A DNA stretch of 58,744 nt from Helicobacteraceae bacterium (lineage in GTDB: Bacteria; Campylobacterota; Campylobacteria; Campylobacterales; Sulfurimonadaceae). Below, in pieces: positions 43,057 to 49,833 of the stretch (positions within the stretch are counted from its first letter, which is position 1; each line of letters opens with the position of its first letter). The position numbers and the translations under genes were made by a program. Where the stretch lies: assembly GCA_013138865.1 (NCBI GenBank), contig WTBY01000001.1, positions 1 to 58,744 on the forward strand, read 5' to 3'. The notes under the pieces are model-generated. The model saw only the letters and a list, made by a program, of their open reading frames with translations, searched no databases and was not told the DNA's origin.

Positions 43057-43251
43057 TTAGTAAATCTCTTTTACTCGTCCTACTTCACCACTCATTAGTC
43101 TTACTTTTATACCATGTGGGTGAGTTGTGGAGTTTGTTAGTAGATCTCTTACTATCCCATCTGTTAAGCGACCTGTATCTTGATCTTGCTTTAACACGAT
43201 CGCAACTGACATACCACTTTTAATGTCGGCTCTTTTTTGTCCGTTTTTCAT
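43057..43251 (-). CDS. ywbE: YwbE family small protein
   Basis: The 64-residue protein matches the YwbE family: R-A-D-I-K-S-G-M-S-V-A-I-V-L-K-Q-D-Q, then G-R-L-T-D-G-I-V-R-D-L-L-T, and H-P-H-G-I-K-V-R-L near residue 45. It is probably a small beta-barrel protein, and its function is unknown. Its ATG overlaps the preceding stop by one base and its stop is one base before the next gene, so it is tightly embedded in the long minus-strand run. Confidence 0.88.
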   Translation of the reverse strand: MKNGQKRADIKSGMSVAIVLKQDQDTGRLTDGIVRDLLTNSTTHPHGIKVRLMSGEVGRVKEIY

Positions 43252-43751
43252 TAAGCTTCGTTTGGCTTGTAGTTTAAAACTTTTTTTACAGTCTCGATAG
43301 AACAGAAGAAAATAGCGTCAAAAAGAGGGTTTATTTTAGTCTGTTCTGGGCTTATCATGTCAAAAGCTTTAACACTAAAACCAGCTCCATCATCACGATT
43401 TTTGGGTTTTATTTTAAACTCTATTGGTGTTAGGGTACGTATGAGGTTCATTACAGTTTTATAGTTTTTGTCTGAGCTCTTTGGTAAAAAGTTACCACGT
43501 CCACTCTCATTAACACGCTCTTTTAAAAGAAGTGAAATTTTGTCTTGAAAAATAACCTTGTTCCACTTGATTGTGCCATTAGCGTAAGAGAAAGTAGTTG
43601 TTTTAGCAACAAGTGGGTGTGGCTTGTTTTTTCTGATCGCTTCTAGGAGGTTTAAAAAAAAGTTTTTTCCGCCTAATGAGTCTGCACACTCTATGAGTTG
43701 TGCATGGTAAGCACTTCTTGTCTCTTCGTCTAAGTTGTTAAAATCGCACAT
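43251..43751 (-). CDS. Conserved-looking hypothetical protein
   Basis: The 166-residue soluble protein has no signal peptide or membrane segment. Lys-rich and moderately charged, it has a helical N-terminal third (about 5-45) and a mixed middle with R-V-N-E-S-G-R-G-N-F-L-P-K. I do not recognise a family. It lies nine bases after sppA and is coupled to ywbE by a TAATG overlap, which supports expression. Confidence 0.6.
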   Translation of the reverse strand: MCDFNNLDEETRSAYHAQLIECADSLGGKNFFLNLLEAIRKNKPHPLVAKTTTFSYANGTIKWNKVIFQDKISLLLKERVNESGRGNFLPKSSDKNYKTVMNLIRTLTPIEFKIKPKNRDDGAGFSVKAFDMISPEQTKINPLFDAIFFCSIETVKKVLNYKPNEA

Positions 43752-43760
43752 ATAGTAGCC

Positions 43761-44609
43761 TTATTTTAGTGTAACAGCAGGAAAATAAGTATGAATTAAA
43801 CTTATACTTTGTGCTGTTAATTTATTTAGTATTTTATCGAACTTATCTTCAGAATTCCATATAGGCTCTTGAACACCACTTAACTTCTGAACTAAAAGCT
43901 TTGCATCGTACTCAACACCAATTGTGTCTATTAGACCAACATCTTTAGCTTGAGAAGCTATAAATATTTTTGCATTTGCAAATTTGGAAGCATCCTCTAT
44001 TTTAAGATTTCTTGCCTTTGCTACATCTACTATGAAAAGATCATAAGTACCATCTACTATTTTACTTAACTCTTCACGTTCATACAGAGTCCACTCACGA
44101 TCGGCTGTACCCATCTGCTTGTATTTACCAGCTTTTATAACTTGTGTTTTAACACCTATTTTGCTCATAAGTTCACCTGCGTTAAAACCTTGAATGATAA
44201 CACCAATACTTCCGATCATACTACCTGGGTTTGCAACTATTTTATCTGCCCAAATAGCACTATAGTAACCGCCACTAGCCAATAGTGAGCTACCATAAAC
44301 AACAACTTTTTTCTTCTTTTGCAGTCTTTTGATCGCATACGCTATCTCGATCGAGGGAGCAACCGCGCCACCTGGAGAGTTGATCGTAACTAAAACACCC
44401 TCTATATTATTATCTGTTCTTGCTTTTTCTAGCTTCTCTACGATCTCATCACTCTGCATGATCGCACCCGTAATGTTTATGTGTTGTAAGTTATGAGGAC
44501 GCAGATCCTCACTAGATGTGGGAGCAAACATCCAGTAGATGATCGCAATAAACAGAAGAGCCTTAAAATGCTCTTTGATAAAACTTAATATTGATACTAT
44601 AAAACTCAT
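43761..44609 (-). CDS. sppA: Signal peptide peptidase SppA, short form
   Basis: A 282-residue membrane-anchored serine peptidase that degrades leftover signal peptides. It has one N-terminal membrane segment (about 12-28) and one ClpP/crotonase-like domain. The nucleophile lies in Y-G-S-S-L-L-A-S-G-G-Y-Y (about 105-116), and the general-base Lys is expected in V-I-K-A-G-K-Y-K-Q-M-G (about 158-168). It is the single-domain form typical of Campylobacterota, not the double-length E. coli form. It overlaps the upstream deaminase-like gene by four bases. Confidence 0.94.
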   Translation of the reverse strand: MSFIVSILSFIKEHFKALLFIAIIYWMFAPTSSEDLRPHNLQHINITGAIMQSDEIVEKLEKARTDNNIEGVLVTINSPGGAVAPSIEIAYAIKRLQKKKKVVVYGSSLLASGGYYSAIWADKIVANPGSMIGSIGVIIQGFNAGELMSKIGVKTQVIKAGKYKQMGTADREWTLYEREELSKIVDGTYDLFIVDVAKARNLKIEDASKFANAKIFIASQAKDVGLIDTIGVEYDAKLLVQKLSGVQEPIWNSEDKFDKILNKLTAQSISLIHTYFPAVTLK

Positions 44610-45820
44610 ACTAACTCCCCATTAATTAAAATCATCTCTTTTTTATAGTTATGAAGTAGTATGTGAAGAGGAAGATCTTCACACTTAGTTTCAGTGTCTA
44701 TATTTAAAAAAAGCATGTCAGCGTCTTTACCTTCTGCGATCTCTCCACAGTTTAGCCCTAACTTTTGAGCTGGTAGTTTTGTAGTCGCATTTAAAAGTTT
44801 TAGTGCAAACTCATTTGCCTCTTGGCTAGAGTGCATAAAGAGTGCTATCTTCATCTCTTCAAAAAGGTCCAGTGTGTAGTTTGAACTAAGTCCATCAGTT
44901 GCTATGATCCACTCTATATTTTGCTCTTCTAAGCGAGTAAGGTCGATCGCACCACTTCCTAAAAGTCTATTTGAAATAGGGCAGTGCACTACGGTATGTT
45001 TACTCTTTGCGATTGTAGATAACTCTTCATCGTTTGCTTTTACAACATGAGTTAAAAGTGTAGGCGTACTTGAGAGTTGATCTAAAAACTCTGGTGCGCT
45101 TGTAACTGCCTCTTTAGAGTTTAAAAGTTTGTCAAAAAAGTCTTTGAACTCTCCATCGCTCTCATCTAGCCATAACCTCTCGGCGTCACTCTCCATAAAG
45201 TGTGCAGAGATAGGAAGCTTTTCATCTTTTGCGATCTCTAACGCTTTTTTTACTAAAATAGGGTGAACAGAATATGGTGAGTGAATTGCGATCGCAGCTT
45301 TAAAGCCATCTCGTTTAATACTTTTAGAGTTTTGAAGTCTTGAGACAAAGTCACCAAAAAGAGCGTCAGCCATAACAGCTTGACTCCCTATAAGTTCATT
45401 AAAAAAAACTACTTTTTGTTTAGAAGAGGCAACTGCTTCAAGTTCCATACCATGTGAGCTGATCGCACCAAAAGCGGTTATACCATTTTGAAGCATACTC
45501 TCACACTCTTCTTTGATCTTTTTAGTATCACACTCATTAACAAGATCTTCACGATTTGAGATCACACTATATAGCCAAGGCATAAAAGAACCGTACTTTA
45601 GTGTTGTCTTGTTAGCAGAAAACTCTAAATGAACATGAGCGTTCACAAGTCCAGGCATAACTAAAGTGTTCTCTTTACACTCTGTAAGCTCAGCATCAGG
45701 GTAGAGCTTTTGTAGGTTTGAGAGAGTGTCAATTTTTTCTATCTGTTTCTCATAAGCGATGGCTAAGTTCTCTTTAACGCCATCAGGAAATAAGATATAA
45801 CGAGGTTGAACTATTTTCAT
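44606..45820 (-). CDS. Aminofutalosine-deaminase-like amidohydrolase
   Basis: The 404-residue protein is an amidohydrolase-superfamily enzyme of the cytosine-deaminase/ATZ group. The metal motif P-G-L-V-N-A-H-V-H-L-E, then I-S-A-H-F-M-E-S near 215, H-C-P-I-S-N-R and A-T-D-G-L-S-S-N-Y complete the set of metal ligands. Campylobacterota members are usually annotated as 6-aminodeoxyfutalosine deaminases of the futalosine menaquinone pathway, which I infer here. ATG 45820 is chosen with GGAT upstream; an in-frame TTG at 45832 contains that site. It lies next to sppA as in Campylobacter. Confidence 0.78.
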   Translation of the reverse strand: MKIVQPRYILFPDGVKENLAIAYEKQIEKIDTLSNLQKLYPDAELTECKENTLVMPGLVNAHVHLEFSANKTTLKYGSFMPWLYSVISNREDLVNECDTKKIKEECESMLQNGITAFGAISSHGMELEAVASSKQKVVFFNELIGSQAVMADALFGDFVSRLQNSKSIKRDGFKAAIAIHSPYSVHPILVKKALEIAKDEKLPISAHFMESDAERLWLDESDGEFKDFFDKLLNSKEAVTSAPEFLDQLSSTPTLLTHVVKANDEELSTIAKSKHTVVHCPISNRLLGSGAIDLTRLEEQNIEWIIATDGLSSNYTLDLFEEMKIALFMHSSQEANEFALKLLNATTKLPAQKLGLNCGEIAEGKDADMLFLNIDTETKCEDLPLHILLHNYKKEMILINGELV

Positions 45821-45874
45821 GTGTTGATCCAAATGTTTTAATTAAAATGATTTTAGCTAAAACTTTTGAAATAT

Positions 45875-47599
45875 TTACTTTAAAATATTTACCCAATACA
45901 TGCCATCTCTAATATCTGAAGCTTGTTCTATATGTATAAAGTTGTCATTTGAAGAGTTTGCTGAAGTGTCACAAACATTTTGTTGTGCAACACTGTTAAT
46001 ATACCTACCTTCAACATTCGTTGAACCTATTAGGTTACAGTTATTTTGAGTTGTAGTTGTGGCAGTCCAACTTGAGTAATGTGTCTTTATAAGAGAGAGT
46101 ATAGAGTTTAAAGTAGTTGTATCAGATGTTGCGGTTCCGTTAGTTATAAACGCATTTGTATCACTACAAGAAGTTGTTGCTTTTCCATGAAATTGCACTA
46201 TTTTGTAACTACTGCTAATAGCTTTTAAGTGATCGCTTAGAGCTATGTTTGCTTCGAAGAAACAGCTGTTTTCATTATGTGCTACATCACTCTGTTTATA
46301 ACTACTTTGACATGTACTAGCTGTTGTAGAAGCATTTCTATGTGTTCCTGCTAAAAGTAGTGCTTTTGCATTAGTTCTTTTTAGTGTCACAATGCCTTGA
46401 AGTAGAGTGTTAGAGTCAAATTCAGGGTGAGGTATCTCTATAGCTAAAGTACTTGTAGAAGTTGTATTTACAACTACTGAACCCCAACCTTTGTCGATAA
46501 AAGAGTTTTGATCACTATCGTTTGTTTCATAAAGAATACAAAAACTCTGATCGCTCTCGGCGTCTTTAAAAGTGAAGAGTGAGTAGAACTCTTTTAAAGG
46601 ACTATCACTACTCATGCTACACTTGCCATTTAACATAGAAGTGACACTCTCTTTAAAAGCAATTAAGATCTCATTTGATGGTGCTTCATATATATTAGAG
46701 TCAGCTAAAGGCATAAACTTTTTAACACATAAACCCCATGTCTCTAGTGTCGCAGAGTTTAAACACTCTAGTGGTATCGAGCTATTTACCTCTTTTAAAG
46801 GGTAGTAGCTAAGTTGTGAATACTCACTTGTTAGATCTAGCATTGAGCTTTGTGGAGTTCCTGCCCATGAAGTTCCACTTGTTGTTGCTGGTTTCCATAT
46901 GTTCATCATAATTTTCATATTTTGTGAAGCTACTAGATCTGTTGTTTGAGTGTGTAAAAGTGTCTCGTCTACAAAGTACTTTATATAACTAGGTGTGTAC
47001 TCTATGGTGTACTTATGTGAAGAAGCTGTTGCGTTAAAGTCTAGTGTAACTAACTTTTCATGCATGCTATTTGGTTTGTCAAAATTGTTAAATTGAACTT
47101 GGTTGTCCGCTTTTATAAACTCTATGTCGATTTCATTCCAAGAGTTACTAAGATCTCCATTGTCCCAAAATAGAAAAAATGAGCTTACATAACCATTACT
47201 ATGTGCTGGCTTCATTGTGATCTCATACTTACCATAGCCATAAGTTGTAGTTGTTTGAGCATGAGCACCTGTTGTGTTGTACTCACCACTAATAGTATCT
47301 TTGAGCGCTAAACTCATAGTTGAGTTATTAAAAGTTGCATTCTCGCGAACAAAAATGCTATCACTACCACTAATAGCCCAGTCCCCAAAGTACAAAGAGC
47401 TGTTGTCATCAAAGCTAAGTGATAGGTCTGTATCTGTGTCAAAAGTAAAGCCAACTATAGAAGAAGAGATTGAAGTTTGGTCTGTTGTGCTTTCATTTGT
47501 GCTATTTAAAACAGTAGAGTAAGAGCTACTATTTTCCACACTACAAGCTGTAAATATAAGAGCTATGAGTGAGGTTAAAAAGTAGTTTACTCTTTTCAT
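45875..47599 (-). CDS. GH16-type glycoside hydrolase lipoprotein with unknown C-terminal domain
   Basis: A 574-residue lipoprotein (lipobox I-F-T-A-C, Cys19), then a Ser/Thr-rich linker (20-55). A family 16 beta-glucanase-like domain (about 50-267) has the catalytic signature N-E-I-D-I-E-F with nucleophile Glu156, Asp158 and acid/base Glu160. The rest (about 280-574) is unlike GH16 and carries evenly placed His motifs: I-P-H-P-E-F-D (His391), A-G-T-H-R-N (His420), S-D-V-A-H-N (His441) and F-H-G-K (His471), plus many Cys. These could bind metal. The gene lies between kefB-type and deaminase genes, three bases from the former, and is Ser/Thr-rich unlike its neighbours. Confidence 0.8.
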   Translation of the reverse strand: MKRVNYFLTSLIALIFTACSVENSSSYSTVLNSTNESTTDQTSISSSIVGFTFDTDTDLSLSFDDNSSLYFGDWAISGSDSIFVRENATFNNSTMSLALKDTISGEYNTTGAHAQTTTTYGYGKYEITMKPAHSNGYVSSFFLFWDNGDLSNSWNEIDIEFIKADNQVQFNNFDKPNSMHEKLVTLDFNATASSHKYTIEYTPSYIKYFVDETLLHTQTTDLVASQNMKIMMNIWKPATTSGTSWAGTPQSSMLDLTSEYSQLSYYPLKEVNSSIPLECLNSATLETWGLCVKKFMPLADSNIYEAPSNEILIAFKESVTSMLNGKCSMSSDSPLKEFYSLFTFKDAESDQSFCILYETNDSDQNSFIDKGWGSVVVNTTSTSTLAIEIPHPEFDSNTLLQGIVTLKRTNAKALLLAGTHRNASTTASTCQSSYKQSDVAHNENSCFFEANIALSDHLKAISSSYKIVQFHGKATTSCSDTNAFITNGTATSDTTTLNSILSLIKTHYSSWTATTTTQNNCNLIGSTNVEGRYINSVAQQNVCDTSANSSNDNFIHIEQASDIRDGMYWVNILK

Positions 47600-47602
47600 A
47601 TT

Positions 47603-49258
47603 TTAGCCCTTCACTAGCCTTGTAGCTTGTGCTGCCATTATGTCCGAGCTGAACTCATACATATCTATAAACGCTTCTGTGTTTATTCCCTCAACACTTT
47701 GAAGAACTCTTTTGTTTGTAACTTTTGCGATTACTCTTATATCTTTTCTAACTGATGCTACAGCGTGAGCTATAAGTTCAATCTGAATAGGAGAGTGAAC
47801 AGCTATTATAACTACACTTGCATCTTCAAGACCTGCTTGAAGTAAAATAGCACGTTGTGCAGGGTTACCAAAAATTGCTTTTTCACTATTATCAAGAGCT
47901 CTCTCAAACATGTCATAATCATCAATAATAACTCTGTGTTTAGTCTCACTCTCTTTTAACTTATTTAGTATTAGTTTACTAAAACTTCCATAACCACACA
48001 CTATAGCGTGACCTTTAATTTTTTCTAATGGCTCTGCTCTGTTTAGAATTTGCTCTTCTCTTTTTGAAAAAATAAGTGACATAATCGAGTCTAAGTTGTT
48101 TAAAATAAAAGGAGTTGCTAGCATTGAAGCTATTACAGATAATGTTAAAAGTTGAGAAAATTCTTTGTCTACGAGGTTGAAAGTTGCGGCTTGTGTAAAA
48201 ATAACAAAAGAAAATTCACCAACTTGAGATATAGTAAGTGCTGTTTGAACTGCAACTGTTTTTTTAGCGAATAGAGATATTATAAAAAAGATTATTAAAC
48301 CTTTTATAATCATAATAACAGTGCCAACGCCTAAAATAGTTAAAATATTATTTACTAGAAAAACAGCATCTATTTGCATACCAACAGTTACAAAGAAAAG
48401 TGCTAAAAGAAGATCACGAAAAGGGATGAGGTCTGCTTCAACTTGATGTTTATAGTGAGTCTCTGCAATCAACATTCCACCTATAAAAGCACCAAGAGAG
48501 TATGTGAAACCAAAAACATGAGCTAAGTAACTAGCACCTATTGTTATGATCATAATAGCAAGAATAAAGAGCTCGTGAGCACCAGTTTTACTAACCCAAC
48601 CAAGAATAGGATCAAGCAAGTACTTTCCTATAATAAACAGAATTATTAGTAGTGCAACACCTCCAACAAGTGTATTGAATAGCATGCTTGAAAGTTCGTT
48701 TGTTGAGTCGCTCATCATAGTGATCATAAGTAAAATTGGTATTACTGCTAAGTCTTGAAAAAGTAAAACACCAAGAGTTTTTTTACCATAAGCTTGAGAG
48801 ATCTCATCGCTCTCGTTTAAAATTTTAAGTACGATCGCGGTTGAGCTGAGTGCAAGGGCTGCACCTATAACTAAAGACTCATTATTACCAAGGTTGAAAA
48901 TATATTTTGAAATTAAGAAAAAAGTTAACATACTTAGTGAAACTTGAAGACCACCAAAAGTAAATACTTGTTTTCGCATGTCTATAAGTGTTTGAACTTT
49001 GATTTCAAGCCCGATCGTAAACATTAAAAAGACAATACCTAGCTCACCAACTTCGGCTAAAATATGTTCACCATGAGAGTCAAGACTAACAACAGATGCG
49101 ATCACCGCACCTGCAAAAATATAACCTATAATAGGTGGAACGTCAAAGCGTTTTAGAATTACGTTTGTAATAAGTGCAATTGTTGCGGTAATGATGACAA
49201 CGAGTAATATAGTGTCCAAATTTAAGCCTGAAAATGTAAAAGTATTATTGAATTTCAA
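47603..49258 (-). CDS. Monovalent cation:proton antiporter, CPA2/KefB type
   Basis: A 551-residue protein with about twelve to thirteen membrane segments (residues 15-385) and a cytoplasmic TrkA-N/RCK nucleotide-binding domain (about 415-540) beginning H-A-I-V-C-G-Y-G-S-F-S-K. Conserved membrane motifs include F-A-G-A-V-I-A, F-M-F-T-I-G-L-E-I and L-L-F-Q-D-L-A-V-I-P. It probably exchanges K+ or Na+ for H+ under control of a bound nucleotide. It is divergent from aroQ and is the first gene of the long minus-strand run. Confidence 0.92.
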   Translation of the reverse strand: MKFNNTFTFSGLNLDTILLVVIITATIALITNVILKRFDVPPIIGYIFAGAVIASVVSLDSHGEHILAEVGELGIVFLMFTIGLEIKVQTLIDMRKQVFTFGGLQVSLSMLTFFLISKYIFNLGNNESLVIGAALALSSTAIVLKILNESDEISQAYGKKTLGVLLFQDLAVIPILLMITMMSDSTNELSSMLFNTLVGGVALLIILFIIGKYLLDPILGWVSKTGAHELFILAIMIITIGASYLAHVFGFTYSLGAFIGGMLIAETHYKHQVEADLIPFRDLLLALFFVTVGMQIDAVFLVNNILTILGVGTVIMIIKGLIIFFIISLFAKKTVAVQTALTISQVGEFSFVIFTQAATFNLVDKEFSQLLTLSVIASMLATPFILNNLDSIMSLIFSKREEQILNRAEPLEKIKGHAIVCGYGSFSKLILNKLKESETKHRVIIDDYDMFERALDNSEKAIFGNPAQRAILLQAGLEDASVVIIAVHSPIQIELIAHAVASVRKDIRVIAKVTNKRVLQSVEGINTEAFIDMYEFSSDIMAAQATRLVKG

Positions 49259-49347: not shown

Positions 49348-49833
49348 ATGAAAATAGTTGTTATTCAAGGTCCAAATTTAAATATGCTAGGTATTCGTGA
49401 GCAACATGTTTACGGCCCTATGAAATTAGAGCAAATACATGCTCAAATGAAAGATGTTGCTGAACAGAACAACATTGAAATAGAGTTTTTTCAAAGTAAC
49501 TTAGAGGGCGAAATTGTTGATCGTGTTCAAGAGTGTTTTGGCGATGCTGATGGAATTATTATTAATCCTGCTGCATATACTCACACATCTATAGCTATTC
49601 GTGATGCGATTTCTGCTGTTAGTATTCCTACTGTTGAAGTACATATTAGTAACATTGCTCGTCGTGAAGAGTTCCGTCAAAAAAGTATGATCGCACCTGT
49701 TTGTGCTTCATCTATTGTAGGTTTTGGTCCATTTGGTTACCACCTCTCAATGATCGGAATGATGCAAATTTTAAATGAGGTTAAAGCTGCTCAAGAAGCA
49801 CAAGCGGCTGGGCAACAAGCACCACAAGCGTAA
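49348..49833 (+). CDS. aroQ: 3-dehydroquinate dehydratase, type II
   Basis: AroQ dehydrates 3-dehydroquinate in the shikimate pathway. The 161-residue protein has all type II motifs: [10 protein letters not shown], the flexible-loop Arg and catalytic Tyr in [13 protein letters not shown], and E-V-H-I-S-N-I-x-x-R-E-E-F-R. A low-complexity Ala/Gln tail (about 145-161) is additional. It is first in the operon leading to flhF, the same order as in Campylobacter. Confidence 0.97.

Follow-up and report, generated by a model that had tools for sequence, protein, structure and literature searches.

A GH16 lipoprotein with a putative PghP-like polyglutamate hydrolase domain from an unnamed family

Our analysis suggests that a lipoprotein gene of a Helicobacteraceae bacterium encodes an exported two-enzyme depolymerase, in which a GH16 half would cut beta-glucan and a zinc-dependent, PghP-like half would cut the gamma-linked polyglutamate (PGA) of other bacteria. 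We regard this as the probable account of the protein. Since several lines of evidence, each limited when taken alone, combine in its favor, a PghP-like hydrolase is the best reading of the C-terminal half, and PGA is the best-supported substrate.

The lipoprotein gene and its place in the genome

The gene lies in a window (the whole stretch of DNA analyzed, 58,744 nucleotides) and consists of an open reading frame that runs exactly from 45875 to 47599 on the minus strand, starts with ATG, and encodes 574 residues. Its main parts and neighbors are as follows.

45875..47599, minus strand: whole gene, 574-residue lipoprotein-like protein (GH16 plus PghP-like domain), from the open reading frame list and translation
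47543..47599, minus strand: signal peptide and a lipobox-like sequence (F-T-A-C, followed by Ser) whose last residue, Cys19, is the putative site of lipid attachment
46796..47356, minus strand: GH16 domain, about residues 82-268, lichenase-like, with E156/D158/E160 (PF00722, E 4.3e-27; lichenase structures, E ~3e-29)
45878..46774, minus strand: C-terminal PghP-like domain, residues 276-574 (relatives; model with pLDDT 84.9; fold searches)
47603..49258, minus strand: kefB-type gene (Na/H exchanger plus TrkA_N), ending 3 bases ahead of the lipoprotein gene and not found at this junction in any of 20 relatives
44606..45832, minus strand: amidohydrolase (deaminase-like) gene, PF01979, one flank of the insertion by synteny
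49348..49833, plus strand: aroQ gene (named in the sequence-only reading), the other flank, with matches in 20 relatives

The N-terminal half belongs to GH16, as PF00722 matches residues 84-239 with a score of 95.1 bits (cut-off 22; E 4.3e-27). In a phmmer alignment (E ~3e-29), E156-I-D158-I-E160 coincides with the same motif in the Bacillus lichenase structures 1mac and 1byh, so that the catalytic E-x-D-x-E is present. The sequence-only reading had described a two-domain protein with complete GH16 residues, which this confirms, and its beta-glucanase-like assignment stands, refined to lichenase-like by the 1mac/1byh alignment. The motif is thus held in common with Bacillus lichenase BglS and the GH16 1,3-1,4-beta-glucanases, but the window protein differs from BglS in its lipoprotein-like start, its attached second domain, and its score of 130.1 bits against the cut-off of 300 for the BglS equivalog NF047856. 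With a score this far below the cut-off (130 of 300 bits), the protein is most safely called a beta-glucanase; judging from sequence, a glucan of mixed 1,3-1,4 linkage is the likeliest substrate. At E 0.001, PF00722 matches this protein alone in the window's genome, and GH16 is rare in the class (3/298 genomes, this one included). The two halves have a G+C content of 0.36 and 0.35, compared with 0.33 for the window, and the gene lies in the interior of a 58.7 kb contig, which makes contamination unlikely.

The kefB-type gene and the lipoprotein gene entered the deaminase/aroQ junction, jointly or successively, in agreement with the earlier claim that they interrupt a conserved synteny. Specifically, among 20 relatives (taken from the 40 genomes of the same family in which a deaminase was matched), the spacing between deaminase and aroQ is tight in 16 (73-215 bp) and amounts to 2.5-4.1 kb in the other four, while the gap in the window is 3515 bp. 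A tblastn search (E 1e-8) of these stretches found the kefB-type or lipoprotein gene in 0/20 relatives. In view of the four wide gaps, the junction seems to be a repeated insertion spot; the relatives concerned (L143, L144, L147, and L150) have response-regulator-like matches between deaminase and aroQ. Between the stop of the lipoprotein gene and the start listed for the deaminase-like gene lie 42 bases. Promoter and terminator scans at the locus gave results near chance level. Farther along, a 166-residue protein adjoins sppA (window 43251-43751); Pfam, searched at E up to 1, gave no match for it.

The C-terminal domain family and polyglutamate synthesis genes

The C-terminal half had been described as belonging to no recognized family, which holds as far as named families are concerned: Pfam gave nothing for it at E up to 1, and its one NCBIfam match (E 0.15) is at chance level. 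The same is true of a 48-row alignment of its relatives. Pfam contains no family for the domain in these rows, and NCBIfam gave a few weak unrelated matches that we take as chance (best 4.3e-4, a lipoprotein model, in 3 rows), as we do the best match of the 48-row profile to PDB sequences (complex I subunits, E 0.073). PHROGs likewise gave no match for the window domain, and where two viral proteins did match, the matching part was outside their domain. Among the matches listed, no open-licence PMC paper describes the domain. The alignment was built by skipping 8 short fragments, reducing 74 domain segments to 47 with a 78% identity filter, leaving out L095, and adding L021 and the window domain.

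Members of the unnamed family were found at 75 loci in the genome_contigs collection, in six plasmid records, on two viral contigs, and in two further genomes of the order. The 75 loci, mostly actinobacterial, were found with a four-row alignment and the viral contigs with a five-row alignment; scanning genome_contigs and viral_contigs with the window domain as a single protein returned no relatives, nor did scanning viral_contigs with the Chroococcidiopsis protein or one Actinophytocola member. The plasmid records, found with tblastn, each have at least 80% query coverage at 23-25% identity (E 2e-9 to 2e-4), and their hosts are Chroococcidiopsis, four Streptomyces (three of them S. clavuligerus), and Corynebacterium; the L022 domain reached only the Corynebacterium and Chroococcidiopsis records. 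The domains of the two viral contigs are 71% identical, and a scan with both returned those same two contigs only. A tblastn search of the phage collection with the window domain and with one viral domain gave nothing.

Identity between the window domain and the other members is low (19-28%), and the domain forms a long branch in the tree, which was computed without row L062. With weak support (91/71) and long branches joined, it is placed near two MAG proteins and members from outside the actinobacteria, and we therefore claim no transfer history. Its nearest relatives are two MAG contig proteins (L021:6990-9320 and L022:6939-9263; 26-28% identity), in which the domain follows a different N-terminal part (a lamin-tail domain in L021) and no pgsB is nearby. 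Both have Cys430 and Cys543 in common with the window domain, and the sequence suggests a possible Cys430-Cys543 disulfide. Elsewhere, the domain was found with lamin-tail and tail-fibre-like partners and as a small protein, and degenerate copies of it were found with CapC.

Most members of the family lie near genes for PGA synthesis. Of the 75 loci, 64 have pgsB within up to 8 kb of the domain (worst E 8e-50), 66 have a HAMP protein, and 44 have CapA. The 11 loci with no pgsB include L021 and L022, the two nearest relatives of the window domain, as well as three (L045, L060, and L084) in which the contig ends close to the match, in the direction in which pgsB is expected. On the Chroococcidiopsis plasmid, the domain gene stands directly 3' of pgsB and pgsC, and in the Streptomyces plasmid records it is divergent from CapA and the HAMP protein; in S. 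finlayi, pgsB follows next. PgsB exceeded the NCBIfam cut-off in the loci tested, two actinobacterial and that of Chroococcidiopsis. A phmmer search with the Chroococcidiopsis CapC found it in 0/75 loci, yet Pfam detects CapC in the one Streptomyces locus tested; the counts across the 75 loci therefore leave CapC aside.

PgdS is an NlpC/P60 PGA hydrolase (depolymerase) of Bacillus with a cysteine-peptidase fold, to which the fold of the C-terminal domain is unrelated. A protein of the NlpC/P60 type was observed, together with CapC, near pgsB in the sole Streptomyces locus examined for it (L027, 2123-3217 and 3289-4569). Given that this protein and the domain occur at one pgsB locus, L027 may encode two different PGA-cutting enzymes.

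Besides the window's genome, the domain is carried by two of the 298 class genomes (397 genomes of the phylum), both of the same order. CapC exceeds its cut-off in 2/298 class genomes, which are exactly these two carriers (G003 and G210). The probability that both CapC genomes fall among the three domain carriers by chance is 7e-5, based on two cases only. A third class genome (G228) has a CapC match that is below the cut-off and contains internal stops. Both other carriers have PgsB-like matches (E 7e-61 and 1e-62, below the equivalog cut-off), and each encodes a small protein with the domain and a long double-CapC protein with degenerate domain copies. The copy in the small protein of G003 lacks an H420 equivalent, as judged by eye.

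The PGA-type cluster of G003 (L018 / L103, G003:C35) contains a 1380-residue open reading frame that matches PgsB and, weakly, HEAT repeats, a 1485-residue protein and a 798-residue protein that have no Pfam match, the small domain protein, and the double-CapC protein, of 1052 residues. Pieces similar to this cluster are found in G210 (L019 / L020; G210:C159 and C169), on separate contigs.

In the window's genome, neither CapC nor PgsB was found, the latter in a family search that was positive in the two other carriers. Consequently, the protein may target PGA that other organisms produce; the substrate is also less certain for the window protein than for the family, given that no PGA synthesis genes were found in its genome and the pgsB linkage is that of its relatives. 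The same result bears on an alternative that concerns role only and overlaps the favored explanation, namely that the protein remodels the matrix (biofilm) of its own cell and not polymers of other organisms. On one and the same strand, the gene closely follows the kefB-type gene and closely precedes deaminase and sppA, so that expression together with housekeeping genes, possibly by co-transcription, can be envisaged. However, a cell in whose genome CapC and PgsB are not found is a poor match for this alternative, and we consider it unlikely.

The domain also occurs in viruses or virus-like elements. It lies inside tail-fibre-like proteins of two such elements (L009:2963-5206 and L010:7353-9299, also L011), one of which is the 48-kb Corynebacterium plasmid record, where the domain is within a long protein with tail-fibre matches; the other has an endolysin gene downstream. 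For comparison, the known PghP genes in six additional phage stretches are beside tail genes in 3/6, beside DNA-metabolism genes in 2/6, and inside a long protein of a different name in the remaining one.

Fold and residues compared with PghP

The sequence-only reading had seen in the C-terminal half a metal-dependent hydrolase and had asked for a structure prediction and a structural search. The AlphaFold models place the domain in a zinc-carboxypeptidase-type fold and do not predict a non-enzymatic repeat. The window domain was modeled from the 48-row input (pLDDT 84.9, pTM 0.88), and a homologue from Actinophytocola was modeled from a 40-row input (pLDDT 94.1). For the Actinophytocola model, the top solved structure is PghP 3a9l (Foldseek E 2.5e-6, prob 1.00). 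In VIA, PghP 3a9l scores Z 14.5 (rmsd 3.1, 170 aligned) for this model and ties with the phage PM1 PGA hydrolase 21dc (14.4) and 2odf (14.4), with PghL 5onj at 13.4.

The model of the window domain falls into the same fold class, with a different ranking. In VIA, its nearest solved folds are N-formylglutamate amidohydrolase and related proteins (2odf, Z 13.0; 2q7s, 12.4), PghP scores 10.0 and PghL 9.4, and amidohydrolases, desuccinylases, and a carboxypeptidase rank level with or above PghP. Foldseek gives peptidase B as the single match at E <= 0.001 and does not list PghP among the best 50; among viral models, the PghP of phage Bobb ranks second (prob 0.93, E 0.066). Despite the likeness to N-formylglutamate amidohydrolase, the domain rows have no Pfam match. 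Likewise, Amidase_3 and M14 carboxypeptidases share the fold (Z ~9-12 for the predicted models), and their Pfam models match 0/48 rows.

These rankings bear on a second alternative, that of a cell-envelope or predatory enzyme. Here GH16 would act on wall-associated glucan, and the C-terminal half, as a metal amidase or carboxypeptidase, would attack the stem peptides of peptidoglycan or other gamma-glutamyl amides. The fold class does include peptidoglycan amidases (4rn7 and 7rag, Z 12.0 and 11.9 with the Actinophytocola model), N-formylglutamate amidohydrolase, and the D,L-carboxypeptidase Csd4, and the failure to find CapC and PgsB in the window's genome is in keeping with such a role. Nevertheless, pgsB stands at most family loci, CapC occurs together with the domain in class genomes, the Pfam amidase and peptidase models match none of the 48 rows, and the residue pattern pairs with that of PghP. 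We therefore judge this alternative improbable. The conserved residues on which the PghP pairing rests are as follows.

46415..46429, minus strand: H391-P-x-x-D395, proposed metal ligands (aligned with PghP H40/E45); 48/48 rows, profile alignment
46337..46342, minus strand: H420-R421 (A-G-x-H-R), unpaired with any PghP residue of known role; H in 46/48 rows, R in 48/48
46277..46288, minus strand: D438-x-A-H441 ahead of a helix (H441 aligned with PghP H78); 48/48 rows
46184..46195, minus strand: Q469-x-H471-G472, proposed third metal ligand (aligned with PghP H103-G); 48/48 rows
45908..45934, minus strand: H556-x-E558...R564, proposed catalytic Glu and substrate Arg (aligned with PghP E165/R171, spacing 6 in both); 48/48 rows, roles after the mutant results in PMC6506827

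The four His motifs first noticed in the sequence (H-P-E, T-H-R, D-V-A-H-N, and F-H-G) are borne out in their histidines, with H391, H441, and H471 conserved in 48/48 rows and H420 in 46/48. The Glu of H-P-E is not conserved; D395 is, in all 48 rows, as are H556, E558, and R564, while position 398 is Thr in 44 rows and Ser in 4. H441 is replaced by Asn in the Chroococcidiopsis member, which is outside the 48 rows, and is thus not universal.

To compare the families directly, we aligned the 48 rows with seven PghP proteins using hhalign. The alignment is collinear over 163 columns with a weak score (E 0.013, probability 3.4%), and it pairs H391 with H40, D395 with E45, T398 with T48, H441 with H78, H471 with H103, E558 with E165, and R564 with R171; hhalign against a single PghP was uninformative. 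The H...H-G and E-x5-R patterns are present in 48/48 rows, and the first pair, H-x3-D where PghP has H-x4-E, aligns with one gap. According to PMC6506827, H40, E45, and H103 are the zinc ligands of PghP, mutation of H40, E45, H78, H103, or E165 harms the enzyme, and the Arg171Ser mutant of PghL loses cleavage.

At the same time, PF05908, the family of PghP and PghL, has no match in the window protein (E up to 1), the window's genome (E 0.001, with a positive B. subtilis control), or the 48 rows. The two families (PF05908 with 3a9l, 5onj, and 21dc on the one side) would share the zinc-carboxypeptidase-type fold of the models, the order of catalytic residues, the H-G motif, and a Glu followed six residues on by an Arg, and both are found in viruses, some with or beside tail genes. 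They differ in the PF05908 match, in H-x3-D for H-x4-E, in the additional A-G-x-H-R, in the location of most members of the new family at pgsB loci, and in the fusion of the window copy to GH16. By these tests, the domain is outside PF05908, yet it very probably works like it. The earlier view of an unrecognized family must therefore be qualified, since fold and residue pairing place it near PghP. By analogy with PghP and given the PGA loci of most relatives, the earlier hint at poly-amino-acid substrates also gains support.

A further alternative is that the C-terminal half has lost its cutting activity and serves as a binding module, anchoring the lipoprotein to a polyanionic matrix and leaving the cutting to GH16. 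In its favor, the CapC-fused copies in the two other genomes of the order lack most of the His residues, as judged by eye, and the window domain is a long branch. Since the window copy retains all proposed active-site residues, we consider a binding module quite improbable, the least likely of the readings weighed here.

Proposed mechanism and meaning

The explanation that we favor is the two-enzyme depolymerase. The protein would be exported, probably anchored by a lipid, and presumably exposed at the surface. Its N-terminal GH16 half would cut beta-glucan, most likely of mixed 1,3-1,4 linkage, while the C-terminal half would act as a zinc-dependent hydrolase of the carboxypeptidase-type fold, structurally close to PghP, and cut gamma-linked polyglutamate. 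In this half, H391, D395, and H471 would hold the metal, E558 would make or activate the attack on the gamma-amide, and R564 and H441 would hold glutamate carboxylates. The target may be a matrix or capsule polymer of other bacteria, cut for food, biofilm release, or access.

PMC4497714 lists 226 putative PGA producers outside Bacillales and reports pghP together with pgsB in 19 species only, which leaves the depolymerase of most predicted producers an open question. The same source notes that streptomycetes and mycobacteria often have one pghP-like gene, and the depolymerase gap is therefore not total. It also suggests that PGA hydrolases are retained by non-producers as a means of feeding on PGA that others secrete, and the window protein, with no PGA genes of its own found, fits that suggestion. 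In addition, mixed-linkage glucan of bacterial origin exists, as stated in PMC10374906 and PMC9495663, so that both halves of the protein could meet bacterial matrix polymers.

Taken as a whole family, a broader proposal can be made tentatively, with a likelihood that we place somewhat short of even: this would be a new PGA-depolymerase family, a PGA-cleaving enzyme dedicated to the synthesis loci of actinobacteria, a cyanobacterium, and some campylobacterota that was borrowed for viral tail fibres, and the window protein would be its first described beta-glucanase fusion, used by a PGA non-producer on the mixed glucan/polyglutamate matrix of its neighbors. An unnamed family at pgsB loci with a PghP-like predicted fold and residue pattern is a directly testable candidate for the missing PGA depolymerase, and the protein described here may cut two kinds of biofilm polymer.
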